Below are positions 994 through 58,260 of a stretch of DNA of 59,100 nt, piece by piece. The stretch comes from an uncultured bacterium. Its GTDB lineage: Bacteria; Verrucomicrobiota; Kiritimatiellia; CAIVKH01. Each line of letters opens with the position of its first letter. Position 1 is the stretch's first letter. Both the position numbers and the translations under genes were made by a program. A model generated the notes under the pieces. The model had not been told where the DNA came from and ran no database searches. It saw only the letters and a list, made by a program, of their open reading frames with translations. The stretch covers positions 1 to 59,100 of the forward strand of contig CAIVKH010000366.1 in the NCBI GenBank assembly GCA_903906425.1. Reading direction: 5' to 3'.

Positions 994-1040
994 TTCCAAT
1001 GATTGGAAATGTGCGCAGCGATAGGTTCCAATGATTGGAA
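994..1040. repeat. Paired 15-bp palindrome, locus 1 (centres G/G)
   Basis: TTCCAATGATTGGAA at 994-1008 and 1026-1040, 32 bp start to start, with a 17-bp spacer. It lies between two minus-strand genes, about 370 bp beyond the 3' end of the 1410-2105 gene. Confidence 0.95.
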
Positions 1041-1057
1041 TGTCTCCGGGCGGCGTT

Positions 1058-1344
1058 TGGACTGCGGAAGCGAATTCGGATGAGCTTCTGCTTTTCTTCT
1101 GCGAAGCGATTCGGAGAGCTTCGCAGGTTCGGAATGTAACCGGGGTCGGCGACCCCGGCCACAGAAGAAGGGAAGCTCGCGGATTCGCTTCCTGACGAAA
1201 AGCGGGAGCTCGAAGCCGTCGCTTCCGCAGTCCAAACGAAACCTCGCGGATTCGCTTCCTGACGAAAAGCAGAAGCTCGAAGCATCGCTTCCGCAGTCCA
1301 TACAGGGCGGTGTCGCGCGGCGTGCGCAGACGGGCCGTCTGCGC
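1058..1344. repeat. Noncoding repeat block: 59-bp direct repeats, inverted copy, GC palindromes
   Basis: A roughly 59-bp unit starting CTCGCGGATTCGCTTCC occurs at 1176-1234 and 1243-1300 with few differences. A partial inverted copy (GGACTGCGGAAGCG...) is at 1058-1096, so the block can fold into a long hairpin. It also holds the palindrome CCGGGGTCGGCGACCCCGG at 1140-1158 and GCGCAGACGG/CCGTCTGCGC arms at 1324-1344. The latter element recurs at 3123-3143 inside a coding region. No credible gene is seen between 848 and 1409. Confidence 0.7.
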
Positions 1345-1409
1345 CACCGGCGCGGGTGGTACCGCGCCCTCCATGCGTGAGATTTGATCTTGCAGATTTC
1401 AGATGCGGC

Positions 1410-2105
1410 TCATGCTGCCGGCGGCGGGGTCGGGTTGTTTTTCTTTTTGCGGCTGCGGCCGCCGAAGTTGACGATGATGCGGGCGTTTTTGTAGGCGCCG
1501 AGGAAGTCGGGGTTGGTCCTGGCGAAAACTTCCATGCGCAGGTCGAGAACTTCTTTGAGGAAGTGGTCGGTGTCGTCGAGGGCGGTTTCCACTTCGTCGG
1601 TGACTTCTTTGTTCGCGGCTATGCCGGCGCGCGGGGCGGGGATGCTCGCGATGAAGGTGCCAACAAGGCGGTTGAATTCCATGATCTGTTCCTGCGTGAT
1701 GCCGCCGTCGGTCATGGCTTTCGGATTGGCGGTGATGGCGTCGCTGACGTTCTGGGCGTCGGCCTTGAGTCCCTGGTCGCCCTCGGTTTTGAGTTTGGAT
1801 GGCACGAAGTGCATCTTGGTGGCGAGCTCGCCATTGCCCTGTTCGTTGGCCCAGGCTTCGATGGCCTTGGCGATGGGCAGCAGGGCCTTGATAAGTTTCG
1901 CGATGGTGGCGTCCTTGTCTTTCGCGATGCCCTTGCGGTCGGGCTTCTGTTTGTTGATGAGGCCGTCCTCGGTGGCGATCTTCGTCTTGAACGTGGCGGC
2001 GGCGCGGGCGACGCCGGGATTGGCGGTCCACACGCCCGCGTTGTCGTCCATGATCTTGTCAGTTGCCTTGTGCATGGCTACCCGCGGTTTCTGGTCTTTG
2101 TTCAC
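1410..2105 (-). CDS. Helical protein of unknown function (231 aa)
   Basis: Starts with GTG at 2105 preceded by AAGGAGAG, a good ribosome binding site; an internal ATG (MHKATDK) is a second option. The product is rich in Ala, Lys, Asp and Glu, has no signal peptide, and looks largely alpha-helical. A hydrophilic Lys/Pro-rich tail (SRKKKNNPTPPPAA) follows the conserved-looking segment NPDFLGAYKNARIIV near the C-terminus. I do not recognise the family. The overlapping plus-strand frames are low-complexity shadows. No operon partner is evident: the flanks are repeat-rich noncoding DNA. Confidence 0.75.
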   Translation of the reverse strand: MNKDQKPRVAMHKATDKIMDDNAGVWTANPGVARAAATFKTKIATEDGLINKQKPDRKGIAKDKDATIAKLIKALLPIAKAIEAWANEQGNGELATKMHFVPSKLKTEGDQGLKADAQNVSDAITANPKAMTDGGITQEQIMEFNRLVGTFIASIPAPRAGIAANKEVTDEVETALDDTDHFLKEVLDLRMEVFARTNPDFLGAYKNARIIVNFGGRSRKKKNNPTPPPAA

Positions 2106-2174
2106 GTTTCTCTCCTTAATTAGAGGCGGCGCTGGCCGCCGGTGGGTTTATTGTTTCAAATTCTCTTTGCACAG

Positions 2175-2244
2175 GGAGCGGAGTCGTCCCGCCGCCCTCA
2201 GACGTGAAGGCACTGGCATACCGGCGGCTGGACGACGCCGCTCC
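2175..2244. repeat. Imperfect inverted repeat (stem-loop)
   Basis: GGAGCGGAGTCGTCCCGCCGCC at 2175-2196 is matched by GGCGGCTGGACGACGCCGCTCC at about 2223-2244, giving a stem of roughly 20 bp with one or two mismatches and a 26-bp loop. It lies 5' of the GTG-start gene at 2105 and may form in its leader RNA. Confidence 0.6.
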
Positions 2245-2313
2245 ATACGCAACTGCTTCATAAATATTGCCTTGCTGGCTTCGCAGGATGCCATTCCGGC
2301 CGGCCGGGGCGTC

Positions 2314-2988: not shown

Positions 2989-3003
2989 TGCCAATCATTG
3001 GCA
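2989..3003. repeat. Solitary degenerate palindrome TGCCAATCATTGGCA
   Basis: Shares the 11-bp core CCAATCATTGG with the paired family, and both outer arm bases have changed symmetrically (TT/AA to TG/CA). No partner lies 32 bp away. It is 65 bp upstream of the DUF3857 gene start. Confidence 0.5.
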
Positions 3004-3067
3004 GTTTGGTCTTGAACGCAGACGCGCGGTGGGCTGTCTTTGCTTGCTTTCATCGGGAGAACCCAAA

Positions 3068-6000
3068 ATGCGCCGTCTGATTTTATCGCTGTTGATTTGC
3101 CTGCCGTTCGCCTGCGCCGGTGGCGCAGACGGCCCGTCTGCGCGTTCAAACGCTATGGTGGCAGATGCGCAGACGGGGCCGTCCGCACCACCGATGCTCG
3201 ACCGTGCCGCCGCGCTGAAATCCGCCGCCGATGTTTCTCTGAAGAAATTTCCCGATGCCGACACAGTCCTCGTTGATGACTTCACGCGCGTCACCTATCA
3301 GGCCGACGGAACCGATGTGGCGTGGGATGATGCGTACACAAAAATTCTGACGGAAAAGGGCCGGCAGGAGCAGCAGGCCGTCACGCTGAATTACAATTTG
3401 TTTTACGACACCGCCACGGTCGTTCGCGTCGAGGTCATCAAGCCGGATGGAAAGGCGCAGGACGTGGACATCGCGGCGCAGAGCCAGACGATGGTGGATC
3501 GCGGGCAGATGCAGATGAACATTTATGATCCGAATGACCGCGTTGTTCAGGTCGGAATTCCCGATGTGGACATAGGTGATGTCGTTCATGCGATCACGGT
3601 TCATCGGACGAAGAAGACGCGGATGCCGGACACGTGGAACGATTTCCAGGTCTTCGAAAGCATGGCGCCGATCAAGCGCTACACCTACGAAGTCAACGCG
3701 CCGACCGCGCGTCCGCTCTCGCGAATCGAGTTGAAAGACGCCGTGCCCGGGACCGTTTCGTCGGCCGTCAGCACGAACGGCGACCGTATTGTTTATCGCT
3801 GGGATGTTCGCGATGTGCCGCGGATTTTCGAGGAGCCGAACATGCCGGAATATTATTCGTGCGTGCAGCGGTTGCTCGTCAGCACGATTCCCGACTGGCA
3901 GACGGTGTCGAAATGGTACTGGGGAATTTCGGAAAAACATTACGAGGCGACCACGCCCGACTTGATCGCAAAAGTCCATGAACTGACCGACGGCGTGAAG
4001 GACGAGCGCGAAAAAATCCAGCGGCTGTTCACGTTCGTCTCGCAGCAAATCCGCTACATGGGCATCACGACCGAAAAAGAGGCGCCCGGCTACGAGCCGC
4101 ACGATGTCAGCATCACCTTCGGCCAGAAATATGGCGTCTGTCGCGACAAGGCCGCGCTGCTCGTTGCGATGTTGCGCGTCGCGGGCTTGAAAGCATTCCC
4201 GACGCTCATTCACGTCGGCCCGAAAAAGGACACGGAAGTTCCGATGCCGTGGTTCAACCACGCGATCGTTTCGTCGCAGACTTCTGACGGCGAGTACGTG
4301 CTGATGGATCCCACCGACGAAAACACGTCCGACCTCATGCCGTCGTATTTGTGCGACAAGAGCTATCTCGTCGCGCGCCCCGAAGGCGAAGGACTGCGGA
4401 CCGCGCCGATTGTTCCGGCCTCGAACAACCTGCTTCGCGTCGCGACGCGCGGAAAGCTCGACGAGCACGGAACACTCAAACTCGAAAGCTCGATGGTTTT
4501 CGAAGGCATCAACGACAACTCCTATCGCGGCTATTTTGCGACGATCAGCCCCGACGAGCGCCGGAGATTTTTCGACTCGCGACTCGGCCAGCTTCTGCCC
4601 GGCGCGAAACTCACCGATCTCGCCATCGAGCCGAAAAATCTGCGCGATACGACCCTGCCGATGAAGGTGACGCTTGCGTGCGAGGTGCCGGACTTTGAAG
4701 TTCAAAGCTCATCGCATCGCATGATCGCGCTGCCGTGGCTCGGCCATGCGTTCGGCGTCGTCAATCACATCCTCGGCCAGACGGGACTTGAAAAGCGCCG
4801 TTTCCCGCTGCGGACGGAAATCGCGTGCGGCGTCGAGGAGACCATTGATCTTGAACTCGGCGACAGCGCCGCGCCGCTCGCCGTTCCGCATGTCCCGGAA
4901 ATTTCGCGCGACGATCTGGAATTTCGTCAGGATGTTTCGATTTCCGGAAATCATGTCAGCGGAAAGGCCGCGTTCCTTTTGAAGAAGGTCGAATTTCCAC
5001 CGGCGCGATATGCCGCGCTCAAGCAGTCGCTGCGCGACATCGAATTTGCGCACCGCCAGCGCATCGTCCTGCCGCAGGTCATCGCCGGCGCGACGAATCC
5101 CGACGCGGAAGTTTTGAAACGCACGATCAATATTGTCGTGAAGGACAATCACGAATGGACGACGACCGATGAACACGCGCTGAAAATCCTGAGCTACGCC
5201 GGCAAGAAGCGGCTTTCTGAATTGAAGCTCGATTACAATCCGATCTGGGAGGAATTGACCGTCACGAACGTCACCGTCACAGGCAAGGATGGGAAAATCC
5301 ACACGCTCGCCACGCAGGAAATCAACGTGATGGATGCCGAATGGGTTGCCAGCGCGCCGCGATATCCGGCCGCCAAGACGCTCGTCGCAAGCCTGCCCGG
5401 CGTCGAAGTCGGCAGCGAGATTCACTACACGATTGTTCACCACCGCCGCGATCAGCCGTTCTTTTCCGCGATGGCTACGTTCCGCGATTTCGATCCGGTT
5501 GATTCGATGTCGCTGACCGTCACCGCACCGAAATCGCTCGCAATCAAACAGGCGATCAATGGCGACGGGTTCGTTTCGAGCATCGTGACGAATGGCGACG
5601 CCGTCACGCGTTCGTGGACAAATTCAAATCAGCCCGCACTGGTTCGCGAGGATCATCTGCCGCCGCTGTGGAGTTTCGTGCCGAGCGTGCGGCTCTCGGC
5701 GGGCGATTGGAAAACGTATGCTCCGTCCATCATCGAGCCGATGGAAAAAATCGCGAAGGCCGATGACGCGATCAAAAAAGCAGTCAAAGAAGCGTTGAAA
5801 GGCAAGCACGGCGATTTCGACCAGGCCACCGCGATTCGCGATTACGTCGCGATCAACGTGCGCCTCGCCGGTCCATCGCTCGACCAGCTACCGACCGGCA
5901 TTCTCACGCCGCCATCGCAAACGCTGAAGGAAGGCTACGGCAACACCCGCGACCGCGCGCTGCTCTACTTCGCCATGCTCAAGCAGGCGGGCTTCAAGCC

Positions 6001-6877
6001 GGATTTCATCCTCGCCGCTTCGCACGATCCGCTCGTACGGAGATTGCAAAATGATTGGCTCGCGAATCCGCAGCGAAGCGCATTCGACACTGTGATGGTT
6101 GCCGCTGAAGTCGGCAAAAAATGCGACGGGTTCTTCAATGACACGGACCAATATGCGCACCTCGGAAGTACGCCGCACCTTTTCCACGCCGTGCTGAAGG
6201 CGGACGGCGGCATGGATTCCATCACCGGCGAATCGAACAGCGAAGAAACGCATGAGTCCTTTCGTCTCGATGAAAATGGGGACGCCGTCATCAACATCGA
6301 GACCAAATTCACCGACATGAAGGCGGCGGACTTTCATCGCGAGATGGCACAGCAAACGCCGGAAGAACGCCGCCGTTACGCGCAGGAACTCATCGCGGGC
6401 ATATCGCAGGCGGCGACGCTGGATGGCGAATTCAAAGTGGACGACTCCGAGTATCCGGCCCGGCTGTCGTTTTCGGTTCGGGTACGGAAGTTCGCCGTCC
6501 GGGAGCGCGGCGTGCTGTATTTCACCCTTCCAAATTATCCTCAATTCCAGATGCCGGGCGCATCTTCGGCCCGCGTCAATCCGCTTTATCTTCAGGAGCG
6601 GGACAAGGTCTCCATCTATTTTGAACCACATTTTCCCAAAGGAGCGGCGCTAGTTTCCCCGTCCCTTTTTTATGCCGGCCTGCCCGATGACATGGGGAAC
6701 CTGGGCTTAACCGAACTGCATTCAAGGTCCGACGGAAAACCGGAAACTGGGCTTTTTGAATATCTCGTTTTGAAACCCGCCGTCGTGCAGCCGGATCACA
6801 ATGACGAACTTCACGAACTCAACGGCCGGCTGCGCAACGCGGCGAGCCGGACGTTTCTGCTGAAGCTGGCGGAGTGA
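3068..6877 (+). CDS. Exported tandem DUF3857/transglutaminase-like protein (1269 aa)
   Basis: I place the start at ATG 3068 (upstream GGGAGA) because MRRLILSLLICLPFACAGG is a clear signal peptide; the 52 upstream codons look noncoding. Two copies of a DUF3857 beta domain plus transglutaminase-like domain follow. The first copy has an intact Cys-His-Asp triad: Cys358 in YGVCRDKA, His398 in WFNHA, Asp414 in LMDPTD. In the second copy the equivalent of Cys is Thr960 (YGNTRDRA) and the His position is not conserved, so it should be inactive. The usual family size is about 600-700 residues, so this is an in-frame duplication. Substrate is unknown; periplasmic peptide or isopeptide chemistry is a guess. 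A palindromic pair begins 2 bp after the stop. Confidence 0.85.
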   Translation: MRRLILSLLICLPFACAGGADGPSARSNAMVADAQTGPSAPPMLDRAAALKSAADVSLKKFPDADTVLVDDFTRVTYQADGTDVAWDDAYTKILTEKGRQEQQAVTLNYNLFYDTATVVRVEVIKPDGKAQDVDIAAQSQTMVDRGQMQMNIYDPNDRVVQVGIPDVDIGDVVHAITVHRTKKTRMPDTWNDFQVFESMAPIKRYTYEVNAPTARPLSRIELKDAVPGTVSSAVSTNGDRIVYRWDVRDVPRIFEEPNMPEYYSCVQRLLVSTIPDWQTVSKWYWGISEKHYEATTPDLIAKVHELTDGVKDEREKIQRLFTFVSQQIRYMGITTEKEAPGYEPHDVSITFGQKYGVCRDKAALLVAMLRVAGLKAFPTLIHVGPKKDTEVPMPWFNHAIVSSQTSDGEYVLMDPTDENTSDLMPSYLCDKSYLVARPEGEGLRTAPIVPASNNLLRVATRGKLDEHGTLKLESSMVFEGINDNSYRGYFATISPDERRRFFDSRLGQLLPGAKLTDLAIEPKNLRDTTLPMKVTLACEVPDFEVQSSSHRMIALPWLGHAFGVVNHILGQTGLEKRRFPLRTEIACGVEETIDLELGDSAAPLAVPHVPEISRDDLEFRQDVSISGNHVSGKAAFLLKKVEFPPARYAALKQSLRDIEFAHRQRIVLPQVIAGATNPDAEVLKRTINIVVKDNHEWTTTDEHALKILSYAGKKRLSELKLDYNPIWEELTVTNVTVTGKDGKIHTLATQEINVMDAEWVASAPRYPAAKTLVASLPGVEVGSEIHYTIVHHRRDQPFFSAMATFRDFDPVDSMSLTVTAPKSLAIKQAINGDGFVSSIVTNGDAVTRSWTNSNQPALVREDHLPPLWSFVPSVRLSAGDWKTYAPSIIEPMEKIAKADDAIKKAVKEALKGKHGDFDQATAIRDYVAINVRLAGPSLDQLPTGILTPPSQTLKEGYGNTRDRALLYFAMLKQAGFKPDFILAASHDPLVRRLQNDWLANPQRSAFDTVMVAAEVGKKCDGFFNDTDQYAHLGSTPHLFHAVLKADGGMDSITGESNSEETHESFRLDENGDAVINIETKFTDMKAADFHREMAQQTPEERRRYAQELIAGISQAATLDGEFKVDDSEYPARLSFSVRVRKFAVRERGVLYFTLPNYPQFQMPGASSARVNPLYLQERDKVSIYFEPHFPKGAALVSPSLFYAGLPDDMGNLGLTELHSRSDGKPETGLFEYLVLKPAVVQPDHNDELHELNGRLRNAASRTFLLKLAE
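3123..3188. repeat. GC palindrome inserted in signal-peptide-proximal coding sequence
   Basis: GCGCAGACGG/CCGTCTGCGC arms at 3123-3143 match the noncoding element at 1324-1344 exactly apart from the centre base. A second, decayed copy follows at 3167-3188. They encode the Ala/Ser/Pro-rich linker right after the signal peptide (ADGPSARSNAM...AQTGPSAPP). Confidence 0.65.
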
Positions 6878-6878
6878 T

Positions 6879-6925
6879 TTCCAATCGTTGGAAATTCCGC
6901 GCGCGTATTCTTCCAACCATTGGAA
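6879..6925. repeat. Paired 15-bp palindrome, locus 2 (covarying variant)
   Basis: TTCCAATCGTTGGAA at 6879-6893 and TTCCAACCATTGGAA at 6911-6925, 32 bp apart, starting 2 bp after the stop of the upstream gene. Each copy is an imperfect palindrome by itself. The two are reverse complements of each other except for the central base, because a change in the 3' arm of copy 1 is matched in the 5' arm of copy 2. Confidence 0.9.
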
Positions 6926-9684: not shown

Positions 9685-9731
9685 TTCCAATGATTGGAAA
9701 CTTGGGCTGCGGAAATTTCCAATCATTGGAA
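9685..9731. repeat. Paired 15-bp palindrome, locus 3 (G/C)
   Basis: TTCCAATGATTGGAA at 9685-9699 and its reverse complement TTCCAATCATTGGAA at 9717-9731, 32 bp apart, 15 bp after the stop at 9670. Confidence 0.95.
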
Positions 9732-14700: not shown

Positions 14701-14748
14701 TTCCAATCATTGGAAAAGATCGGGTGCGATAGTTTCCAATCATTGGAA
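14701..14748. repeat. Paired 15-bp palindrome, locus 4 (C/C, 33-bp phase)
   Basis: TTCCAATCATTGGAA at 14701-14715 and 14734-14748, 33 bp apart, 5 bp after the stop at 14696. The 3' arm of copy 2 runs into GGAAGAGG, the likely ribosome binding site of the gene starting at 14760. Confidence 0.95.
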
Positions 14749-18650: not shown

Positions 18651-18697
18651 TTCCAATCATTGGAAAAAACACGACCGGACTTTTCCAATCATTGGAA
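18651..18697. repeat. Paired 15-bp palindrome, locus 5 (C/C)
   Basis: TTCCAATCATTGGAA at 18651-18665 and 18683-18697, 32 bp apart, 51 bp after the stop at 18599 and 64 bp before the SEDS gene start. Confidence 0.95.
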
Positions 18698-18761
18698 GTT
18701 TCCGTCCCGCGCCCGCGATCTGGTTTCACAGCCCGCGCACTTCTGCTATGGAAGCAGCCGC

Positions 18762-20102
18762 ATGGCGAAGGCGAAAGGCATTTTCAGTTTCTGGAGCGGA
18801 CGGCGGCGCGAGCGTTGGCTGCTGGCGCTGGCATTTCTTGCCGTGACGGCGGGCTACGCGGCGGTCCTGCTCGTTCATTTCGGCGAGGCCGGCGAATTTC
18901 GCCGCGCCGATTTCGCGCCGCTGATCGCGTTCGGCGCCTCGCTGCTCGCCGTGCATTTCGTTTTCGCGGTCGCGAATTTTCGCGGCGATCCGGTGCTGCT
19001 GACCGCAGCGCTGCTACTGGCGGGCCTCGGCATCCTCGAGCAATTCCGGCTCGGCACGCTCGCGGTCGCGAATGCCGGCGACTGGTCTACGCTTGCATTC
19101 CCGATTGGCGCGGCGGCGATGACGTTCATCGCGCTTAGCCTCGCCGGCGGACGCTGGCGCGTGCTGGAGAAATTTTCGACGGTCAGCGGCATCGCGGCGA
19201 TTGCGGTGATCGCGCTCACCGTCGCCACCGGCCATAAATTTCGCGGCGCGACCTTCGCGGCCGGCAACATGACGCCAACGGAAATCATCAAGGTCCTGCT
19301 GCCGGTTTTTCTCGCTGGTTTTTTTGCGGCCTATCGCAGCGACCTCGCGCAGATGGGACTGCCCGGCATTCCGGCGCCATCAACGCCGACGGTGCTCGCG
19401 CTTGGATTTTTTTGGGGCGCGCCGATGGCGCTGCTTTTTTGGCAGCACGACCTCGGCATGATCCTGCTTCTGAACGCGGTCTTCCTCGTGCTGCTGAGCC
19501 TCGCGTCGCGGCGCTCCGGCTATTTGTTCGCCGGCATTTTGCTGGCGGTGACCGCGGCGTTTGCGGCGCTGCGTTTCGTGCCGCATGTGCAGTCGCGGAT
19601 CGAAACGTGGGCACAGCCGTTTCACGACACGTCGGGGAAGAGTTTTCAAATCATGCACGCGCTGACCGCGCTGAACAGCGGAGGCGTCTGGGGTTCGGGC
19701 CTCGGCGCGGGAAATCCGCAGACGATTCCGATTGCCTCGTCCGATTTCGTCTATGCGGCACTTGGCGAGGAAATCGGTTACGCCGGCTGCGGCCTGGTCG
19801 TTGTGCTTTATCTGATTTTTTTCTACCGGGGGTTTCGAGTCGCCGACAGCCAGAAGGATCCGTTCGCACAATTTCTCGCGGCGGGTCTGATTTCCGTCTT
19901 CGCATTTCAGACGCTACTGAATATCGGCGGCGTGACGAAGGCGCTGCCGTTGACGGGAATCACACTGCCGTTTGTGAGCCACGGCGGCAGCAGCCTCCTG
20001 ACGAGTTTCATCGCGCTGGGACTCCTGCTCGCGCTTTCCGAAGGCGGGCGGGACGCCGGACGCGGCGGCAGGACGGCGAAAAAGAAAAACGCCGCGGACT
20101 GA
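18762..20102 (+). CDS. SEDS-family peptidoglycan glycosyltransferase (FtsW/RodA-like, 446 aa)
   Basis: The start is taken at ATG 18762 (MAKAKGIFSFW) because the upstream in-frame codons run through the palindromic repeat. About ten transmembrane helices are visible. The signatures are QHDLGMILLL, then SFQIMHALTALNSGGVWGSG, then SSDFVYAALGEEIGYAG, then the C-terminal LPLTGITLPFVSHGGSSLL, all typical of SEDS polymerases that extend glycan strands from lipid II. Whether it serves division (FtsW) or elongation (RodA) cannot be told, and no adjacent class-B PBP or mur genes are present to decide. Its last codons overlap the terminator of the convergent gene. Confidence 0.9.
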   Translation: MAKAKGIFSFWSGRRRERWLLALAFLAVTAGYAAVLLVHFGEAGEFRRADFAPLIAFGASLLAVHFVFAVANFRGDPVLLTAALLLAGLGILEQFRLGTLAVANAGDWSTLAFPIGAAAMTFIALSLAGGRWRVLEKFSTVSGIAAIAVIALTVATGHKFRGATFAAGNMTPTEIIKVLLPVFLAGFFAAYRSDLAQMGLPGIPAPSTPTVLALGFFWGAPMALLFWQHDLGMILLLNAVFLVLLSLASRRSGYLFAGILLAVTAAFAALRFVPHVQSRIETWAQPFHDTSGKSFQIMHALTALNSGGVWGSGLGAGNPQTIPIASSDFVYAALGEEIGYAGCGLVVVLYLIFFYRGFRVADSQKDPFAQFLAAGLISVFAFQTLLNIGGVTKALPLTGITLPFVSHGGSSLLTSFIALGLLLALSEGGRDAGRGGRTAKKKNAAD

Positions 20103-20111
20103 TCCGCGGCG
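20079..20111 (-). terminator. Rho-independent terminator of the outer-membrane protein gene
   Basis: Read on the minus strand, CGCCGCGGA and TCCGCGGCG form a 9-bp stem with a 4-nt loop (20111-20090), followed at once by TTTTTCTTTTT. It lies 27 bp beyond the stop at 20138 and overlaps the last codons of the convergent SEDS gene. Confidence 0.85.
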
Positions 20112-20137
20112 TCTCGTTCCGGCGAAAATATGTTCGC

Positions 20138-20695
20138 TCAGAATTCGGAAAAGCGGGCAAACACGCTCATGTTCCAGCTCTGGAAATCCTTCTCGTCATA
20201 TCCGCCAACATTGACGCCACCAGTGAAGCGATAGCTGGCGCCAATGCCGATTTCCACCCAGTCCCAGACGTTCACGGCCACGTTCACGCCAGGCTCCACC
20301 ACGAGCATGTTGTCCTGGTTGACATCCTTCACCTTGACCTCGCCGCCACCGACGAGGACGGACGCCGACGCGTGAACCAGCTTGTAGGATTGGATGGTGT
20401 ATTCGGCGCGAAGACCGGCATACCAGATGCCATAGCTGGCAATGTCGCCCTGCTTCGTGTCGTCGATCGCGCTCAGCGAAGTCGTCGCGGACGGGCCGAG
20501 CGAGAGCTTGTCGTTGAGCATCCATCCGACGCTGAGGCTTCCCATCGTGGTCTTGTGGCCTCCGATGTCGGTGAGGGAAAGTTCCGGCCGCGTGTACATC
20601 TTCCAGGTGTCCGTCTCGTCAACCAACGTATCGTTCTTCGCGATTGCCGCCATCGCCGCCAGGCTCACCAACAAACCGATAAACAGTTTCTTCAT
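20138..20695 (-). CDS. Outer-membrane beta-barrel protein (185 aa)
   Basis: ATG 20695 follows GGAAGGAG and begins a clear signal peptide (MKKLFIGLLVSLAAMAAIA). The mature part alternates hydrophobic and polar residues in strands (GSLSVGWML, YGIWYAGLRAEYTI, WVEIGIGASYRFTGGVNVGG) and ends in SVFARFSEF; a C-terminal Phe is the Bam-recognition signature. The size fits an 8-strand barrel of OmpX/OmpW type. No substrate is assignable. It has its own terminator, so it is probably monocistronic. Confidence 0.82.
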   Translation of the reverse strand: MKKLFIGLLVSLAAMAAIAKNDTLVDETDTWKMYTRPELSLTDIGGHKTTMGSLSVGWMLNDKLSLGPSATTSLSAIDDTKQGDIASYGIWYAGLRAEYTIQSYKLVHASASVLVGGGEVKVKDVNQDNMLVVEPGVNVAVNVWDWVEIGIGASYRFTGGVNVGGYDEKDFQSWNMSVFARFSEF

Positions 20696-20798
20696 CGAAG
20701 CGCTCCTTCCAAATTGTCTGCGTTCAACTGGGACGAACCTATACCAAAGCCGCGTGCCGCGTGAAATGGTTTCTTGCATAAAACTAACGATTGAAAAA

Positions 20799-21770
20799 TC
20801 ACGCCTTGTCAGGGGTGCAGGACCGGATAGCGGCGAGCACCGCTTCGTGGAGCTTTCCGTTCGTCGCAACGACACCCCGATTTGCGGCGAGCGTGCGGCC
20901 TCGCGAAAAGTCGAGCGGCTTGCCATGGATGTCGGTCACGCGGCCGCCGGCTGTTTCGACCAGCAGCGCGCCGGCGGCGTGATCCCAGATTTTTTCCTCG
21001 TAGCCCTTTTTCGTGGGCAGCCGCAGATAGACATCGCCCTCGCCCGTCGCGACGACCGCGTATTTGGCCTGGCTGTCGAGGCGGCGCGGCGTGGCTATGC
21101 TGCCGAGCGCCTGCGTGACACGCGCCGAAACATCGTGCGCGGAATGGCCGGACTCGAACGACTCGCAGAAGACGGCCTGCGCAGGCAGAGCGCGCGCTGA
21201 GACCGCAATGGATGTTTCGTGCCGGCCGCGTAGATCATATTGAAATGCGCCGCCCCCGCAGACGGCGGAAAAAATTACGCCGCCGTTCAGGCGCGGGCAA
21301 CCGAGAACGCCGAGCACCGTTTTTCCATTTTCGATCAGCGCCAGCGCGATGGCATATTGATCGCCGCGCAGAAATCCTTTCGTTCCATCCACCGGATCGA
21401 GTGTCCAGAAACGGTCGCCGTTTCCACCGGCGTGATGACCGAGATCAATCAGGCGCAGAACGTCATCGTTTGAATGCGCCGACAAAATGCGACGGACGTG
21501 ATCGCCGACGAGCGAGAGAAGCGCGGCATTTTCCGGTTTCGAAAGTTCGCCGCTTTCCTCCTCTGCGACGATGGGATCATTCGGAAATGACCTGCGAAGA
21601 TGTTCGTGAACCACGGCCTGTACGCCGAAGTCCGCGACGGTCACGGGCGACTTGTCTTCCTTCTCGGCCTGACCCTCGCGCGTTAGTTCGCGGCCGACGG
21701 AGTCGGCCAGCCGGCACGCATCGGCGACGGCGGCCATCGCAACTTCCAGTTCTTTCTCGAAAGAATTCAT
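20799..21770 (-). CDS. 3'(2'),5'-bisphosphate nucleotidase, HAL2-like inositol-monophosphatase family (323 aa)
   Basis: Hydrolyses PAP/PAPS-type 3',5'-bisphosphate nucleotides with Mg2+, removing an inhibitor of sulfotransfer and RNA turnover. Metal-binding motifs: Glu70-Glu72 (AEEES), Asp125-Pro-Val-Asp128-Gly-Thr (WTLDPVDGTKGFLRG) and WDHAAG near residue 256. The length and the GFLRGDQYAIALALIE segment are closer to eukaryote-like HAL2/SAL1 than to short CysQ. Start set at ATG 21770 (MNSFEKEL), the first that leaves a normal N-terminus. Divergent from the exonuclease gene with a 79-bp gap. Confidence 0.88.
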   Translation of the reverse strand: MNSFEKELEVAMAAVADACRLADSVGRELTREGQAEKEDKSPVTVADFGVQAVVHEHLRRSFPNDPIVAEEESGELSKPENAALLSLVGDHVRRILSAHSNDDVLRLIDLGHHAGGNGDRFWTLDPVDGTKGFLRGDQYAIALALIENGKTVLGVLGCPRLNGGVIFSAVCGGGAFQYDLRGRHETSIAVSARALPAQAVFCESFESGHSAHDVSARVTQALGSIATPRRLDSQAKYAVVATGEGDVYLRLPTKKGYEEKIWDHAAGALLVETAGGRVTDIHGKPLDFSRGRTLAANRGVVATNGKLHEAVLAAIRSCTPDKA

Positions 21771-21849
21771 GGCGCGCAGCATTCCGGCGCGACTTTCCCG
21801 CGGCAATCATTTTCTTGCGCGGCAATGCGAAATCAGTTGTGGTCGCGTG

Positions 21850-22476
21850 ATGCTCGCTCGCGAAGCAACTTTGTCCGTGTTCGATTTCGAGACCACCGGT
21901 GTCGTCGAAGATTTCGCCGCGGAACCCTGGCAATTCGGCATCGTGGAAATGCGCGGAGGGATAATCGTGGCGGAAAGCCAGTCGGCGGGTTTCATGCGCG
22001 TCGGCGAACGCCCGTTCAGCCCGCACGCACCGGGAACGTGGATGCAGCACCTCGATGAAATTGCCGCGGCTCCGTCTCGGGTTGATTGGTGGCCGCATTT
22101 TGAACAGCGTCTTCATTGCGATGCGATCGTGGCGCACAGCGTTGGCACCGAGAAGAAAATCCTCCGACATATCGCGCCGTTGCACCGCCATGGCCCGTGG
22201 ATAGACACGTTGAAGCTTTCACGGCTCGCCTTCCCCGACTGGAAGTCGCACGCGCTGGAAGATGCGATCCCGAAGCTCGGATTGCTCGCGAGCGTCCGTG
22301 AAATATGCCCCGGCCGCGCGCCGCACGATGCGCTCTTCGATGCGGTGGCAGCGGCCGTGTTGCTTGAACATCTGCTGACGCTGGACGGCTGGCACGACGC
22401 AACGGTCGAGGCGCTCGCCGCCGCAAGACCACGCGCCTATCACGCGCAAAGAAGAATCGGGCGCGCGAGATTGTGA
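21850..22476 (+). CDS. DEDDh 3'-5' exonuclease (DnaQ/epsilon-like, 208 aa)
   Basis: The ExoI motif FDFETTG (Asp12, Glu14) opens the protein. AHSVGTEKKIL with WIDTLKL (Asp119) corresponds to ExoII, and HDALFD (His159, Asp164) to ExoIII, so all catalytic residues of a DEDDh nuclease are present. It is a stand-alone domain of about 200 residues with no polymerase or ligase fusion, so a repair/proofreading or DNA/RNA trimming role is likely. ATG 21850 is preferred to the upstream in-frame ATG because the latter overlaps the divergent gene start. Confidence 0.85.
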   Translation: MLAREATLSVFDFETTGVVEDFAAEPWQFGIVEMRGGIIVAESQSAGFMRVGERPFSPHAPGTWMQHLDEIAAAPSRVDWWPHFEQRLHCDAIVAHSVGTEKKILRHIAPLHRHGPWIDTLKLSRLAFPDWKSHALEDAIPKLGLLASVREICPGRAPHDALFDAVAAAVLLEHLLTLDGWHDATVEALAAARPRAYHAQRRIGRARL

Positions 22477-22497
22477 ACGGCGAGGCGAATTTTTTGC

Positions 22498-23928: not shown

Positions 23929-23986
23929 AGAAGATAGTCGGCATTTCCTGCTGATTTGAGGCAGAACGACTCCGCCGTCACGCATC

Positions 23987-24470
23987 ATGAACGCATGTGC
24001 GAAACGACAAACAGTCCTCGCAAACATGCCGTATGCGATCATGGCGCTGCTGGGCGCGGCGACGATAGCGTTTGGATCCGACTTCGCGCCCCGCGCGCGC
24101 TGGCGGGCGCGGCCGGCTATGTCGCCTACGCGATTGTCGGGAGCGTCTGGACGATGATTTTCGTTTGTCCCTACTGCGCCTTCTACGCCGCGCGCCAATG
24201 CCGTGCGGCTACGGGACTCTTTCGGCCAGACTGGTGCCGAAAGGTGACAAGAATTGCTTTGCGGAAAAATTCCGACGGCACGTCCCCGTTCTCGTTCCGC
24301 TCTGGCTGATGCCCGTTCTTTTTGCGGTGCCGTTGCGCTCTGGCATTCGTGGTCATGGCTTCCGCTTATCCGCATCGCCGCGTTTGCGCTGAACTCATAC
24401 GTCATCCTGCCACTGCTATCCCGAAAGCACAGCTGCACCGAATGCCCGTAAAAAAGACGGCTGCCCCTGA
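23987..24470 (+). pseudogene. Frameshifted small integral-membrane Cys-motif protein
   Basis: Coherent membrane-protein sequence is split over all three plus frames. The N-terminal part runs MNACAKRQTVLANMPYAIM...GSDFAPR. After a shift near 24090 comes LAGAAGYVAYAIVGSVWTMIF and VCPYCAFYAARQC. After a one-base loss near 24202 comes PCGYGTLSARLVPKG and FRRHVPVLVPLWLMPVLF. After another shift near 24330 comes ALWHSWSWLPLIRIAAFALN and VILPLLSRKHSCTECP, and a further shift gives KKDGCP. The pieces concatenate into one 4-helix protein with CPYC, CPCGYG and CxxCPxxxxCP metal- or redox-type motifs. At least three frameshifts make it a pseudogene, unless the assembly is faulty here. 24471-24674 shows no gene. 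Confidence 0.7.
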
Positions 24471-24674
24471 TTGGCAAAATCGTGTTCCGCCAGAAGCGAT
24501 CAGCCGGCATGACGCCGGCGCAGTCAGCGAAATCTCGAAGTACGTCCGCGAAACCCACCATCTAATTCACGACGCCGGGGGCGTGTTCAAAGGAGGCCCG
24601 CTGCGGCGGTAGTTCAAGTGAGCACAGACGGTGTTGCATGCTCCGCCAAGATTTCTTCGTCGGGAGATTTGGGA

Positions 24675-25925: not shown

Positions 25926-25932
25926 GTGTCCG

Positions 25933-26877: not shown

Positions 26878-26982
26878 CGAAGGCATTCCTTTCATCAAAA
26901 TTCGATTGTCATGATCGCTGCAAGATAGACAGTGCAGCGACTATCGTTCATCCGCGCACGCAGCGCAAGCCCGCCGGGAATT

Positions 26983-27906: not shown

Positions 27907-27946
27907 GTGCTGTCCGTGTGTTGGATTCGAAACCTGAAACCTGGGT

Positions 27947-28513: not shown

Positions 28514-28542
28514 AGAATCAAGTTACCGTTCCATTCCGCAGT

Positions 28543-28621
28543 TTCCAATGATTGGAAGTTTGCGTTGCGGGTTTTTCCAATCATTGGAAGTTTGCGCGGC
28601 CGGATTTTCCAATGATTGGAA
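28543..28621. repeat. Tripled 15-bp palindrome, locus 6 (G/C/G)
   Basis: Copies at 28543-28557, 28575-28589 and 28607-28621, each step exactly 32 bp, with centres alternating G, C, G. It lies 1 bp beyond the stop of the amaP-like gene (minus strand) and 29 bp upstream of gmhA. The only triplet in the window. Confidence 0.95.
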
Positions 28622-31728: not shown

Positions 31729-31775
31729 TTCCAATCATTGGAAAACTTCGCGTGGCAAATTTCCAATGATTGGAA
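31729..31775. repeat. Paired 15-bp palindrome, locus 7 (C/G)
   Basis: TTCCAATCATTGGAA at 31729-31743 and TTCCAATGATTGGAA at 31761-31775, 32 bp apart, 41 bp beyond the stop of the efflux permease (minus strand) and 210 bp upstream of accB. Confidence 0.95.
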
Positions 31776-33739: not shown

Positions 33740-33786
33740 TTCCAATGATTGGAAACGACCGCGCCGCAATTTTCCAATGATTGGAA
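33740..33786. repeat. Paired 15-bp palindrome, locus 8 (G/G)
   Basis: TTCCAATGATTGGAA at 33740-33754 and 33772-33786, 32 bp apart. It sits inside an operon, 30 bp after the adaptor stop and 14 bp before the ATPase start (minus strand), which argues against it being a full transcription terminator. Confidence 0.95.
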
Positions 33787-37055: not shown

Positions 37056-37102
37056 TTCCAATGATTGGAAGTTTCCGCCCCGGTCTTTTCCAATGATTGG
37101 AA
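37056..37102. repeat. Paired 15-bp palindrome, locus 9 (G/G), divergent intergenic
   Basis: TTCCAATGATTGGAA at 37056-37070 and 37088-37102, 32 bp apart, between the divergent MarR gene (start 36947) and the oxidoreductase gene (start 37348). The remaining 400-bp gap is GC-rich with an AT-rich patch TTTAAGTTTTGTTAATAA at about 37232-37250 that could hold the promoter of the oxidoreductase. Confidence 0.95.
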
Positions 37103-40479: not shown

Positions 40480-40526
40480 TTCCAATCATTGGAAACTGCG
40501 CACGCGCAAACTTCCAATGATTGGAA
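40480..40526. repeat. Paired 15-bp palindrome, locus 10 (C/G)
   Basis: TTCCAATCATTGGAA at 40480-40494 and TTCCAATGATTGGAA at 40512-40526, 32 bp apart, 21 bp after the permease stop and 8 bp before a separate intrinsic terminator. Confidence 0.95.
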
Positions 40527-42941: not shown

Positions 42942-42988
42942 TTCCAATGATTGGAAGAAAGCGGAAGCGCAACTTCCAATCATTGGAA
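42942..42988. repeat. Paired 15-bp palindrome, locus 11 (G/C)
   Basis: TTCCAATGATTGGAA at 42942-42956 and TTCCAATCATTGGAA at 42974-42988, 32 bp apart, 23 bp after the ThuA stop. An AT-rich iteration of TTTCGNNTTTCG type follows at about 43036-43065. Confidence 0.95.
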
Positions 42989-48303: not shown

Positions 48304-48350
48304 TTCCAATGATTGGAAACTTGCGCGCCCGCATTTTCCAATCATTGGAA
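48304..48350. repeat. Paired 15-bp palindrome, locus 12 (G/C)
   Basis: TTCCAATGATTGGAA at 48304-48318 and TTCCAATCATTGGAA at 48336-48350, 32 bp apart, 12 bp after the lipoprotein stop. Confidence 0.95.
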
Positions 48351-49397: not shown

Positions 49398-49445
49398 TTC
49401 CAATGATTGGAAGAATGCGACGACGGAATTTTCCAATCATTGGAA
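49398..49445. repeat. Paired 15-bp palindrome, locus 13 (G/C, 33-bp phase), divergent intergenic
   Basis: TTCCAATGATTGGAA at 49398-49412 and TTCCAATCATTGGAA at 49431-49445, 33 bp apart, between the divergent DUF4177-like (49273) and YadA-head-like (49571) genes. Confidence 0.95.
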
Positions 49446-51099: not shown

Positions 51100-54000
51100 T
51101 GAAATTTTTCGAGCACTCGAACAATGAAGTTTCCCTCGCGAAACAAAGGCGCAGATTTCCAATGATTGGAAATTTTCGTGGGCGGTCTTTTCCAATCATT
51201 GGAAACCATCGACCGGCGCGCCGGGCATTGCGACAACTTGTGACCGGTGCTCTGCTGGCGCTGGCGGCCACGGGAAAAGTTTGCGCGACGACGCTGCTGA
51301 TCGAGGCGGAAGATCTCGAAGCGACCGGCAGATGGCTGGTCGAGACCGGCCACAAGGACGTGCATAAATTCATCATCGCCAGCGCTGACGCCCGCAAAGC
51401 GCCGGCCGCGGGCGCAATCGAAATTCCGCACGCGGGAAACTGGCATCTCTGGGTGCGCAGCAAAGATTTTCCTGCTGATCGCCCCGGCATTCGGTTTTTT
51501 TCCGTCCGCATCGGCGGAGAAAAATCGAAGACGATTTTCGGGAAGCACGGCCGCCGCGAATCCGATGGCTGGGCGTGGGAAGATGGCGGCACGCTCGATC
51601 TGGCCGCCGGCCCGGTGCTCGTTGTCGTCGGCGAAGAAGTCGCGCCGTCGGCCCGCTGCGACGCGCTGCTGCTCACCGACAGTTCGTCGTACAAACCCGA
51701 CGACGAGCCGGCGAAACTCGGCAAGCAGCGCGCGAAATTTATTCCGCTCATCGTCAGCGAAGAATCCCGGCAGGCAATTTTGCCCGCGCCGGTCGGTGCG
51801 GTTGACGAAAACCCTGTCGCCGTTTTGGAGAACGATTCGCTGCGGCTGGCGTTTCATCTGGCGGCAACCGCATCCGGCACGGCGGTCGTCTTGCGCGCGG
51901 CCACACGCGCCGGCAGCGAATGGCGGACGCTTGGTGAAGATGCCAGCGCGGAGCATTACGATGTTCTGTTTCGTCCGAAGGAAAGCGACCCGAAGATCAA
52001 TTCCTCGCTGGTTCATCCGACGTGGGACATGAGTTTCCTTCCTATGTCCGAAGTCCGCGCCGGCACAAATTCCATTTTGACGCGCACCGAGCCGGCAACG
52101 GCGCCGTGGTTCGCGGGCCAGTGTTTTCCGCTCCGCCCCTCGGGCGCACGGCAACGGGACGCGCAAACCGTCGAGCTGACTTTTCCGCCGACTGCGGCCG
52201 GAAAACTTTCGGCCGTGTGGCATTTGCCGGACCGCCAGCCCGCCGCGGAAGTGTCGCTCGAATTCGCGCCGGACAAGCCGGGACATTTTTCGCTCGGCTA
52301 TCACGCGCCGCTCGCCGTGCCGCCAGCGGACACGGATTTCATGCTTCTGCCGTTCATGTATCACGGTCACCGTTTCCCGGAAAAGCCGGTCACTGTTCTG
52401 AGCGCGCTGACGCCGACTCCGATGACGCTGGTGAATCGTGGAGGCGTCTCGTGCGCGCTGGCAGCGGACCCGCGCGCGTTGCCGTTCGAGTGGCCCTCCG
52501 CGTCGAATTCGCGCTACGCATTTGCCCTCCGCAACGAATCGGGACTGGCGCAGCCGATCGTCTATTCGCCAGTCCTCGGCCAACCCGGAAGCGTCTCCGA
52601 TGGTTCCGCGATCCACGCTTCATTTCGTCTTTGGGTTCAGCGCGGCGATTGGTACGCGGCGTTTCGGCGCATCGCCGACGAAGTCTTCCATCTCGCTGAT
52701 TATCGCCGTCCCGTCTTCGCGTCGCTTTCTGACACGGCGCTGAATCTGCTCGACCTGTTGCGAAATGAAAGAGCATCCGGCTGGGATGCGCGGGCGAAAG
52801 GCCCGTGGAACATCGAGAGCCGCAACATCGTCACGCAATCGTCGCCGCTGACGTATTTGAGCTATTACCTTCTGACCGGCGACGAAGATTTCTACCGCCG
52901 TTTCGCGCTGCCGTCGCTGGAATTTCTGCTTTCGCGGCCCGGCCCGCATTTTGCCGCCGAGTGCGAAATCGGCGACGGATATTACAAGCACCAGCCGATG
53001 CGCGGGCCGGGTTCGTTTTATGGCGCGGGCGTCTTCGCATCCGCATTCGCGATGACTCAAGGCCGCAGCGCGGCATTCGGTTCGTTCTGTCTGAACGACG
53101 ACGGCTCGGTTCGCGCCGCGCACAGCGGGGGCCACGCGCAACCGTTCGAAGATTCGCTCGCGCTTTTCGAACTCACGGGAGAGCAGCGCTGGCTCGCAGA
53201 GGCGATTCAAGGCGCGGACAAATATATCGCGGAAAACATGGCGAAGCTTCCGTCGCGCGACATCGGGCCGTTGCCGTTCGTGAACGTAACGTTCATTCCC
53301 GATTGGGAAGGCTTGCTTCATCTTTACGACGCGACCGGTGAGCTGCGATTTCTCGACGCGGCATACGAAGGCGCGCGGTGGCTGATGACGACGCTGTGGA
53401 CGCAGCCGCCGTTCCCCGACGGAGACACGACGATCAATCCCGGCGGCGTTTTCGACAACGCGCGGCACGTCTGGGTGATGGGTGACAGACTTTTCCGGCG
53501 CGGCCTTTTCGACGGTCTGTTTTCGCCGGAGAACGTGAAGCTCCCGGCCGTGCAATTGCCGGAGCATCGCGTTCCTGCGTGGCAGGTGAGCAACATCGGC
53601 CTCGGCCTCGAACAGCCCTGCACCTACACGCGACGCGGCCCGCATGCGAACATCATGATGAGCACGTGGGCGCCGAATCTGTTGCGGCCGGCGAGCGCGA
53701 CGCACGACGACGCATTTCGGATCGCCGCGCGCAACGCGACCATCGGCCGCTTCGCAAATTATCCGGGCTACTACCTCGACGGCATGACCGACCAATGCCA
53801 GCGGCCTGATTATCCGCTCGCCGGCCCGGATGTGACGTGCCTCTACGTTCATCACATCGTTCCGTTTGCCGCGTATGTGCTCGACTATCTTTTCACCGAC
53901 GCCGAAACGCGCTCCGGCGGCGCGGTCGCGTTTCCGTCCACGCGCCAGTTCGGTTACGTCTGGTTCGACAGCCGGTTGTTCGGCCACGCGCCGGGAAAAG

Positions 54001-54659: not shown

Positions 54660-54669
54660 AAATCGTCAT

Positions 54670-54716
54670 TTCCAATCATTGGAAGTTTTCGTGAGCGTAT
54701 TTTCCAATGATTGGAA
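54670..54716. repeat. Paired 15-bp palindrome, locus 15 (C/G)
   Basis: TTCCAATCATTGGAA at 54670-54684 and TTCCAATGATTGGAA at 54702-54716, 32 bp apart, 10 bp after the stop at 54659. Confidence 0.95.
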
Positions 54717-54777
54717 ATTGCGGTGATGTTTGCGGACGATGACGCAGCATCGCAAGCAAGTCGGATGGCGGATAAGA

Positions 54778-57189: not shown

Positions 57190-57194
57190 AAAAA

Positions 57195-57272
57195 TGGGGT
57201 GACCGACGGGATTTGAACCCGCGACGTCCAGGGCCACAACCTGGCGCTCTGCCGGACTGAGCTACGGCCACC
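57195..57272 (-). tRNA. tRNA-His (GTG), CCA encoded
   Basis: On the minus strand, an acceptor arm GTGGCCG/CGGTCAC with the extra G-1 opposite C73 that marks tRNA-His; D-arm TAGCTCAGTCCGGCAGAGC; anticodon stem CCAGG/CCTGG with loop TTGTGGC (anticodon GTG); T-arm GCGGGTTCAAATCCCGT. The 3' CCA is encoded (57195-57197). Convergent with the GH42-like gene, 5 bp beyond its stop. Confidence 0.97.
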
Positions 57273-57358
57273 ATCCAAGCCGGCGAAAAGTAGTGTCCGC
57301 GCGCAGGAAAGCAAAAGAAAAAAATCGCGGCGCGCGGCGCGCGTGCTACCGTTTGCCC

Positions 57359-57769
57359 ATGTTCAACGTTTCTCCGGAAAAAGAATCGGCGCTGATCAGC
57401 CGGATGGCGCAGCTCGGCATACGCGAGGCGGACATCGAGGAAAAGTTCGTCCGCGGCTCCGGCGCTGGCGGACAGAAGATCAACAAAACTTCATCGTGCG
57501 TCTATCTTCTGCACAAGCCGACCGGCATCGAAATCAAATGCCAGCGCGAGCGCTCGCAGACGCTCAACCGTTTCTTCGCGCGCCGCGAATTGTGTGACCG
57601 GATCGAAGAGGAGCGCGAAGGCGAACGCAGCGCGCGCCAGCAGGCCTTCGAGAAAATCCGCCGACAGAAACGCCGCCGCTCCCGCCGCCAGCGCCAGCGG
57701 ATGCTCGACGACAAACACAAACACTCCGAAAAGAAATCCGCGCGCCGCTGGCAAACCGGCCCGGACTGA
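57359..57769 (+). CDS. RF-1 domain peptidyl-tRNA hydrolase (ribosome-rescue, 136 aa)
   Basis: A stand-alone class-I release-factor catalytic domain: EKFVRGSGAGGQKINKTSS contains the GGQ (residues 37-39) that hydrolyses peptidyl-tRNA. There is no codon-recognition domain. The C-terminal third is extremely basic (KIRRQKRRRSRRQRQRM), like the rRNA-contacting tails of ArfB/YaeJ and the mitochondrial C12orf65 (MTRFR) type. Likely frees stalled ribosomes. ATG 57359 gives the family-like N-terminus. Confidence 0.92.
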   Translation: MFNVSPEKESALISRMAQLGIREADIEEKFVRGSGAGGQKINKTSSCVYLLHKPTGIEIKCQRERSQTLNRFFARRELCDRIEEEREGERSARQQAFEKIRRQKRRRSRRQRQRMLDDKHKHSEKKSARRWQTGPD

Positions 57770-57771
57770 GA

Positions 57772-58260
57772 TCAGAATCCGCGTAATTCGTTCCACCCCG
57801 CGTGCGTGATCTTGCGACGCGTGTTGATGAGATGCGGGATGGATTCTTCCTCCAGAAAATCCAGCGGGTTGTCGTCGATAAAGCCGCTGTCGGCGCGCAG
57901 GCCGCGGATGTGCATGTGGCCGGGTACATGTACGGGCGCAGCCTGAAATGGAGATTTCCAATGGTTGGAAACTTGCGCGGTGGGATTTTCCAATCATTGG
58001 AAAATGTGTTGCCGCCACTGCGTAACCGGCCGTGGGTGCCGAATTGGATCCCGGCGAGCAGGGTTGATGGCTCGGAGCATGGGGCGTCGCGGGTTGCAGT
58101 CCTTGGTGGTGCCGTACTGCCGTTCGAAGACCGTTGAGACCACCTTCAGCGCACGGCCCGCCGCGCTCGCCAAACAAGCCTTTGATGTGTGTGATCTGGA
58201 GACGCCGAAGAAATTCAGGGCCGTATCGGCACTTGGAAACGTCTCTGTCTGACGCCTCAT
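57772..58260 (-). pseudogene. Remnant of an IS1380-like DDE transposase split by a palindromic pair
   Basis: On the minus strand, 58260-58005 encodes RQTETFPSADTALNFFGVS and VVSTVFERQYGTTKDCNPRRP. The second stretch resembles the first catalytic-Asp region of IS1380-type transposases (DSTVFERYG...GYNPxxPGRPS), but the Asp is lost. After the palindromic pair (57956-58002) the same strand encodes MHIRGLRADSGFIDDNPLD with FLEEESIPHLI, resembling the second-Asp region (IRADSGFF...LDFLEE). The middle of the enzyme is missing and no complete terminal inverted repeats are seen. The alignment is from memory of the family, so moderate confidence. Confidence 0.45.
57956..58002. repeat. Paired 15-bp palindrome, locus 16 (variant G/C)
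   Basis: TTCCAATGGTTGGAA at 57956-57970 and TTCCAATCATTGGAA at 57988-58002, 32 bp apart. Copy 1 carries one arm change that leaves a G-T type wobble with copy 2. It lies within the transposase remnant. Confidence 0.9.

Follow-up and report, generated by a model that had tools for sequence, protein, structure and literature searches.

Helically paired palindromes dispersed through a Kiritimatiellia genome as candidate landmarks for a chromosome-organising protein

What purpose is served by a 15-bp palindrome that recurs throughout a bacterial genome, nearly always in pairs set three turns of the double helix apart? The question is raised by the 59,100-nucleotide window analysed here, the whole of a stretch (positions 1 to 59,100 of contig CAIVKH010000366.1, assembly GCA_903906425.1) from an uncultured bacterium of the class Kiritimatiellia. 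The window holds 30 exact copies of TTCCAATSATTGGAA and three more with one mismatch, grouped at 16 loci into 15 pairs and one triplet. Fourteen of the 17 intervals between neighbouring copies measure 32 bp and the other three 33 bp. A first, sequence-only reading had reported the same totals of copies, loci and intervals, which a rescan reproduces exactly, and had called them far from chance. That judgement stands: there are 33 matches in the window at no more than one mismatch, 100 dinucleotide shuffles give a mean of 0 and a largest value of 0, and the 6.66 Mb genome contains 2,752 exact copies and not one copy of the reversed control pattern. The answer proposed here, and held tentatively, is that the arrays are landmark sites, evolved in situ, for a dimeric or tetrameric DNA-binding protein whose most likely job is to organise the chromosome.

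The geometry of the arrays is strict. The detailed sample of the window's genome (G000) comprises 893,135 bases in 36 contigs, the window included, with 14,891 N, or about 13% of the genome. It contains 243 arrays by the author's filter: 200 pairs, 24 triplets, 15 quadruplets and 4 single sites. Sites with 0, 1, 2 and 3 mismatches over the 12 fixed bases number 427, 100, 32 and 236, which sets the true sites apart from the background. Neighbouring copies lie 32 bp apart in 230 cases and 33 bp apart in 42, with ten pairs elsewhere in the range of 15–130 bp, so that a scan beyond the window finds the copies of this genome paired at fixed spacing. Outside this genome, 321 distinct neighbouring pairs were measured at 182 loci. 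With 10.5 bp to the turn, 316 of them deviate from whole turns by no more than 0.15 turn, and the distances (15–130 bp) peak at 31–32 bp with smaller groups at 20–22 and 30 bp. Thirty-one of the 182 loci were retrieved with a pattern requiring a spacing of 30–35 bp; stretches of the genomes G040 and G013, chosen by place and not by pattern, likewise show 31–32 bp. All 27 intervals at the G005 loci are 32 bp. One array, in G021, has 11 copies when up to 3 mismatches are allowed, and several arrays of the rumen genome JAFXQI (L014, L015, L019, L025 and L026) follow a compound order of 22-30-22-30-31 or near it, in which two- and three-turn steps alternate. Spacing by whole turns is a sign of proteins lying on one face of the double helix.

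The spacers resemble one another in composition and in little else. AT-rich at both ends and GC-rich between, they are symmetric round the centre but otherwise nearly unrelated: all 146 were distinct in a first sample and 233 of 234 in a larger one, where 2.5% of spacer pairs are at least 75% identical vs 0.5% in a column-wise null. The rarer 33-bp class mostly carries a strong CG-NNNN-CG in its spacer, reaching 1.7 bits per position (n=47, G000), as if an extra contact paid for the additional base.

The constraint acts on DNA rather than on RNA. Two-site arrays inside genes have their copies in different reading frames in 7 of the 8 translated, which places the constraint on the DNA itself. 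In transcript orientation, single mismatches that keep a wobble pair are no more frequent than those of the mirror class (26 vs 26), and the centre base is C in 199 cases and G in 177. A long hairpin joining the two copies of a pair was rejected, since the centre bases of 32-bp pairs follow no rule of complementarity (GG and CC 70, GC and CG 74). In the larger sample the centres of two-site arrays read G-then-C in 73 cases and C-then-G in 35, weakly suggesting a preference in a composite dyad, and the centre G lies on the locally G-richer strand in 304 cases vs 226. An intrinsic terminator or RNA 3'-end element, one option of the sequence-only reading, is ruled out by the 26:26 mismatches, by the occupation of about half of the divergent gaps (25 of 46) and by a spacing that follows the DNA helix. 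An Rfam scan of the window at gathering thresholds returned nothing besides one tRNA.

Comparison with homologous loci indicates how the sites arise. In ffh of the window's genome, which encodes the signal recognition particle protein, an array spans codons 170–186, and the stretch reads VPMIGK...FQSLE in place of VPxIGR... plus a variable helix. Aligned with it, 21 orthologues lack one codon only, upstream of and outside the array, and at 29 of 29 orthologous loci (of 30 retrieved, the other being its own) there is no site at two or fewer mismatches within the gene. Apart from that codon the stretch is no longer than in the orthologues; the array was written over homologous codons and not inserted. 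In G244 a site lies in the 'IPMLG' stretch of a methyltransferase-like protein; compared with G093, the changes there are synonymous except for one K/R replacement. A PDB homologue of thiD aligns across its array without a gap; relative to PDB chains, murC is longer by 4 residues and a nucleotidyltransferase of G029 by 8, and one further query had no PDB match. G005 has an array before a gene that we take to be kdsA, and at the same position G002 has a degenerate version of it, also spaced at 32 bp; these two genomes have about 70% nucleotide identity and broken synteny, and one array junction could be compared. The sole long syntenic stretch in the sampled DNA, between G040 and G013, offered no array to compare. 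The ffh, G244, PDB and G005/G002 comparisons together show, for several loci, that sites are written and eroded in place, by point mutation.

Within its phylum, the motif is abundant only in the window's class. Its general core across the class is TTCCAANNNTTGGAA, with 12 of 15 bases fixed. The core was counted in 387 genomes of the phylum, in rows tallied by hand: 131 of the same class, the window's own genome included, and 256 outside it. At least 50 copies occur in 34 of the 131 same-class rows, and the maximum among the 256 others is 5; motif-rich genomes thus make up roughly one in four of the sampled class. Family members other than the window's genome have 0 to 170 core copies, genomes of its own genus lying outside the sample. 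The sequence-only reading had named absence from all close relatives as refuting; these counts show many copies in 34 same-class rows, but down to none within the family. The middle three bases are specific to lineages: TSA in the window's genome, GSC in G040 and G013, and often ACC/GGT in G005. Paired copies were found at no fewer than 31 named loci, labelled Kiritimatiellae (at least 15), Pontiellaceae (at least 1; record B1224, L020, which is not flagged as a metagenome-assembled genome), Lentisphaerae (at least 3) and Spartobacteria (at least 7, from one assembly), and the remaining paired loci among the matches listed bear five other labels, Firmicutes and Bacteroidales included. The motif-bearing class is probably Kiritimatiellia, the odd labels marking misbinned or misnamed records. 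One IMG/VR contig (L129) is the sole viral contig found with a paired array.

The arrays of the window and its one Rfam feature are given below; coordinates come from the motif scan, with gene calls added for arrays 2, 4 and 9, and the arrays are unstranded.
994..1040, unstranded: array 1, a pair 32 bp apart
6879..6925, unstranded: array 2, a pair 32 bp apart, each copy with one mismatch; the predicted gene 3194-6877 ends one base before it
9685..9731, unstranded: array 3, a pair 32 bp apart
14701..14748, unstranded: array 4, a pair 33 bp apart, in a gap flanked by two plus-strand genes
18651..18697, unstranded: array 5, a pair 32 bp apart
28543..28621, unstranded: array 6, the triplet, 32 and 32 bp
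31729..31775, unstranded: array 7, a pair 32 bp apart
33740..33786, unstranded: array 8, a pair 32 bp apart
37056..37102, unstranded: array 9, a pair 32 bp apart, between two divergent genes
40480..40526, unstranded: array 10, a pair 32 bp apart
42942..42988, unstranded: array 11, a pair 32 bp apart
48304..48350, unstranded: array 12, a pair 32 bp apart
49398..49445, unstranded: array 13, a pair 33 bp apart
51157..51204, unstranded: array 14, a pair 33 bp apart
54670..54716, unstranded: array 15, a pair 32 bp apart
57956..58002, unstranded: array 16, a pair 32 bp apart, the first copy with one mismatch
57198-57271, minus strand: tRNA gene some 700 bp from array 16; nothing else in the window matches Rfam at the gathering threshold

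A lone TGCCAATCATTGGCA at 2989-3003, two mismatches from the motif and partnerless, was left out of the counts and may be chance or a decayed site.

The arrays are nearly indifferent to the direction of the genes around them. Gene positions come from a home-made, unpublished caller whose start sites are uncertain, and the term clearly intragenic is therefore reserved for arrays with coding signal on both sides. In 0.58 Mb, arrays occupy 83 of 157 co-directional gaps of at least 60 bp, 25 of 46 divergent gaps and 16 of 25 convergent gaps; a single array per gap is the rule (127 gaps), and two arrays share a gap in 2 cases. Distances from arrays to start codons are broad. Arrays lie clearly within coding sequence in 8 of 243 cases in the window's genome, 9 of 76 in G040 and 4 of 47 in G013. 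At C66:96908-118366 of G040, 12 genes in a row each encode a twin-arginine-type signal peptide with an array between the signal peptide and the mature part; these are presumably sulfatases, judging by appearance only. No common function was seen among 20 proteins adjoining or overlapping arrays in G029, where a HypD gene and an AIR-synthase-type gene flank one of the arrays.

Along the sampled 13% of the window's genome, the arrays are regularly spaced. Intervals from array to array have a mean of 3,385 bp, a coefficient of variation (CV) of 0.56 and a gamma shape of 4.0, and 4 of 214 are shorter than 1 kb vs about 55 expected at random placement. The regularity survives a null in which the set of gaps is held fixed and the occupied gaps are drawn by length (173 intervals, 500 simulations). 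Intervals under 1 kb make up 1.7% of those observed vs 12.3 ± 2.0% and those under 1.5 kb 8.1% vs 22.2%, with none of the 500 simulations as low in either case, and the CV is 0.637 vs 0.813, a value as low being reached in 0.2% of simulations. This regular spacing has holes. Positions 18697-28542 of the window form an array-free stretch of 9.8 kb with gene matches to the FtsW/RodA, inositol phosphatase, GFO/IDH, pfkB and F5/8-domain families. The longest array-free stretch, 16.6 kb at G000 C8:18520-35167 (L072, L187), holds 21 predicted genes and 11 unoccupied gaps; its coding score is somewhat under average, and it is perhaps recently acquired DNA.

Two families of regulator were considered as readers of the motif. 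The Fur box is a 15-bp 7-1-7 dyad with an AATNATT core, and the motif of the window's genome shares both dyad and core with it; the centre is not conserved class-wide, being GSC or ACC/GGT elsewhere. No FUR family match was found in G013 (1,339 core sites), G040 (853), G041 (110), G045 (71) or G039 (58), and the Fur-box idea is rejected because these motif-rich genomes lack a match. The presence of nrdR, ComEC and DprA was surveyed in 80 author-chosen class genomes, nearly all with motif counts. The gene nrdR is present in 79 of the 80, motif or not, and the NrdR zinc ribbon is similar in 6 motif-rich and 2 motif-poor genomes; on this presence pattern and zinc ribbon, NrdR is an unlikely reader. 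No array lies within 250 bp upstream of any of 8 nrdR genes, and no canonical NrdR box pair was seen in the sampled loci with an assumed consensus and no positive control.

Taken together, these features lead to a model in which the arrays would be double-stranded binding sites for one sequence-specific dimeric protein. A palindrome implies a dimer, and two palindromes whole turns apart imply contact between dimers. Two dyads, and as many as 11, line up along one side of the helix with three turns, occasionally two, from each to the next, so that adjoining dimers may touch or assemble into a tetramer, the way NrdR does at its box pairs. Copying plays no part in their spread; they arise and persist by point mutation in place wherever the sequence allows, essential ffh codons included. 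About one array at most is retained per gap, with arrays rarely closer than 1 kb and recurring roughly every 3.4 kb in the window's genome. The predicted job is that of a sequence-specific nucleoid-associated protein organising the chromosome at regular intervals. A chromosome-organising job is preferred because the sites look like those of a dimer or tetramer in the cytoplasm, gene direction hardly matters to the arrays, no gene theme unites them and their spacing is regular. A bolder version, held with more reserve, is a chromosome ruler written in the sequence: regular, helically phased dyad arrays, evolved in place and overriding even ffh codons, might be read by a tetramer and so give a periodic, sequence-addressed nucleoid.

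Several observations weigh against a chromosome-organising role. Strong evidence of even spacing comes from a single genome. The raw CVs of G040 and G013 are about 0.6 (74 and 45 intervals), but the gap-corrected CV is matched by 8% of simulations in G040 (38 intervals) and 3.4% in G013 (27), other cut-offs giving 1.4% to 41%. In genus g43, exact sites are single in 20-kb pieces of the genomes G184 (3 sites, 2 inside genes) and G244 (6 sites, 5 inside genes), and G244 has five sites inside 1.9 kb, so that neither pairing nor even spacing is universal. The earlier statement that copies always come in pairs is accordingly nearly right for the window's own genome, where 4 of 243 arrays are single, and does not extend to these relatives. 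Core copies number 1,177, 1,132, 640, 334, 82, 74, 31, 4, 3 and 1 in genomes of g43, 151 and 5 in g3, and 170 and 2 in g5, and ranges of 1,177 to 1 and 151 to 5 within a genus would be surprising if the sites met a structural need. Sequence drift explains some of the variation: in 42 kb of G002, examined together with a locus from one other genome, two degenerate G002 pairs at exactly 32 bp escape the pattern. Arrays in co-directional gaps lie nearer the upstream stop codon (mean relative position 0.38 ± 0.035, n=80), which hints at some link to genes. No binding protein was found among the candidates tested (Y1_Tnp, FUR and NrdR), and a drive of the uptake type would likewise yield origin in place, dialects and a fairly even spread.

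That last point belongs to the main rival, in which the arrays are a DNA-uptake signal: the competence machinery would prefer motif DNA, and biased uptake with recombination would accumulate sites in place by molecular drive, as for the uptake signal sequences (USS) of Haemophilus and the DNA uptake sequences (DUS) of Neisseria. This is a real possibility, though it ranks below the architectural reading. Point mutation in place is what is reported for USS in the available text of PMC7811141, the richest genomes have thousands of copies with lineage dialects, spread regularly in the window's genome, few arrays lie clearly inside coding sequence, and their flanks are AT-rich. Quick gain and loss within a genus would also suit a dispensable drive. 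ComEC is present in 77 and DprA in 76 of the 80 class genomes; as they are equally present where the motif is absent, they do not discriminate. In the two-contig assembly of G018, ComEC has three in-frame TAG and DprA is split over two frames (C1:1409676-1410500 and C1:1682927-1683545), through recoding, decay or sequencing error. Against an uptake signal, no receptor is known and the uptake sequences described in the part of PMC1939737 consulted are non-palindromic; their spread is called 'uneven' once and 'relatively even' elsewhere in what is available of PMC7811141. One site per fragment should presumably suffice for uptake, which leaves strict helical pairing and arrays of 5–11 copies unexplained. 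A global transcription factor, with the arrays as operator pairs for a regulator of a large share of operons, is unlikely. Palindrome pairs three turns apart are a known form of operator (NrdR, PMC12051234, in the portion available), and the array before the candidate kdsA keeps its place in G005 and G002 across about 70% identity, but arrays are no less frequent in convergent gaps than in divergent ones, start-codon distances are broad, some arrays lie well inside genes, and the G029 neighbours show no functional theme.

Two further alternatives carry little weight. A signal for recombination, repair or mismatch correction, of the kind of Chi or HIP1, in which a DNA enzyme and not a structural protein makes or reads the sites, is improbable: the motif is highly iterated, lineage-restricted and found in coding DNA, with gain by point mutation as proposed for HIP1 (PMC4390886, in its available part), but 15-bp dyads in helical pairs look, in our judgement, longer and more structured than a site made by a methyltransferase should be. 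Least credible of all is a mobile repeat spread by a transposase such as a REP-associated tyrosine transposase (RAYT), in the manner of repetitive extragenic palindromes and bacterial interspersed mosaic elements (REP/BIME) or miniature inverted-repeat transposable elements (MITE). Many paired palindromes, chiefly intergenic, are typical of REP/BIME, and the arrays match this in copy number, pairing and mostly intergenic placement. The window's genome has 3 matches to Y1_Tnp, the RAYT domain, and the excess of similar spacer pairs may mean that a few arrays are related copies. The observations already contradict a mobile repeat, since spacers are otherwise unrelated and the in-gene copies that could be compared overwrite homologous codons in place. 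RAYT as a mover is rejected because the number of Y1_Tnp matches does not follow the motif: there are none in G021, G039 and G050 (88, 96 and 91% complete) despite 111, 58 and 183 core sites, and 62 in G035 vs 3 in G046 at similar exact-motif numbers. The 62 in G035, the most of any genome surveyed for Y1_Tnp, have a weak best score (1.7e-8). Of the options offered by the sequence-only reading, then, the one that fits is an array bound by a dimer of architectural or regulatory function, and REP/BIME, with its suggested co-conserved RAYT-type gene, falls along with the RNA 3'-end element. The weights given to these explanations are the author's judgement: an architectural protein ranks first because of the paired dyads and long arrays, an uptake signal second because of the rapid gain and loss, and promoter regulation third because convergent gaps and gene interiors are used.

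Either of the two leading explanations would matter. The form of the motif points to a cooperative DNA-binding protein, and the motif is strong enough to prescribe codons of ffh. As architecture, the arrays would amount to a sequence-addressed, regularly spaced bacterial chromatin; as an uptake signal, they would be a third origin of such signals, independent of and unrelated to the other two, and would reveal how barriers to sex come about in evolution. The sharp differences in number between species of one genus provide natural comparisons, such as motif-rich G184, G244 and G263 beside motif-poor G093 and G123, G004 beside G006, and G005 beside G002.

Among known systems, the genome-wide iterated oligomers are of few kinds, namely Chi, uptake sequences and HIP1 (PMC4390886, in its available part). 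The motif strings were not found in the literature searched, and papers on repeats, uptake and competence in Kiritimatiellia, Lentisphaerae and Verrucomicrobia, covered by title and start of abstract, held nothing on the motif. HIP1, a cyanobacterial palindrome, is highly iterated, low in some relatives and of unsettled function according to the accessible text of PMC4390886, and the array palindrome resembles it in being iterated at high frequency with few copies in some relatives. HIP1 (GCGATCGC) is, however, an 8-bp site tied to DNA methyltransferases (GATC/CGATCG), whereas the arrays have 12 fixed bases in 15 and are paired by helix turns. Uptake sequences number about 1,500–2,200 copies, have lineage dialects and are fewer in constrained coding sequence (PMC7811141, PMC1939737 and PMC3630211, as far as their available parts go). 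The array motif is like them in being lineage-specific, abundant, genome-wide and gained by point mutation. In contrast, the USS of Pasteurellaceae and the DUS of Neisseriaceae have non-palindromic cores of 9–11 bp, with no helically phased pairs described in the accessible parts of these sources, and the array-bearing class is unrelated to both families. To our knowledge, no described bacterial chromatin or uptake system combines the paired geometry, the copy number and the regular spacing. The sequence-only reading knew of no named system with this exact geometry, and here it was mistaken. NrdR boxes are paired 16-bp palindromes, commonly with a spacer of 15–16 bp and three turns from centre to centre, bound by a tetramer that binds best at whole turns (PMC12051234, in the portion available). 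Spacing of the palindromes by whole helical turns, most often three, is shared by the arrays, whose core sequence is different; NrdR is moreover a repressor specific to ribonucleotide reductase and not a reader of thousands of loci. In their geometry, then, the arrays resemble NrdR boxes; the manner in which they evolve resembles that of uptake sequences.

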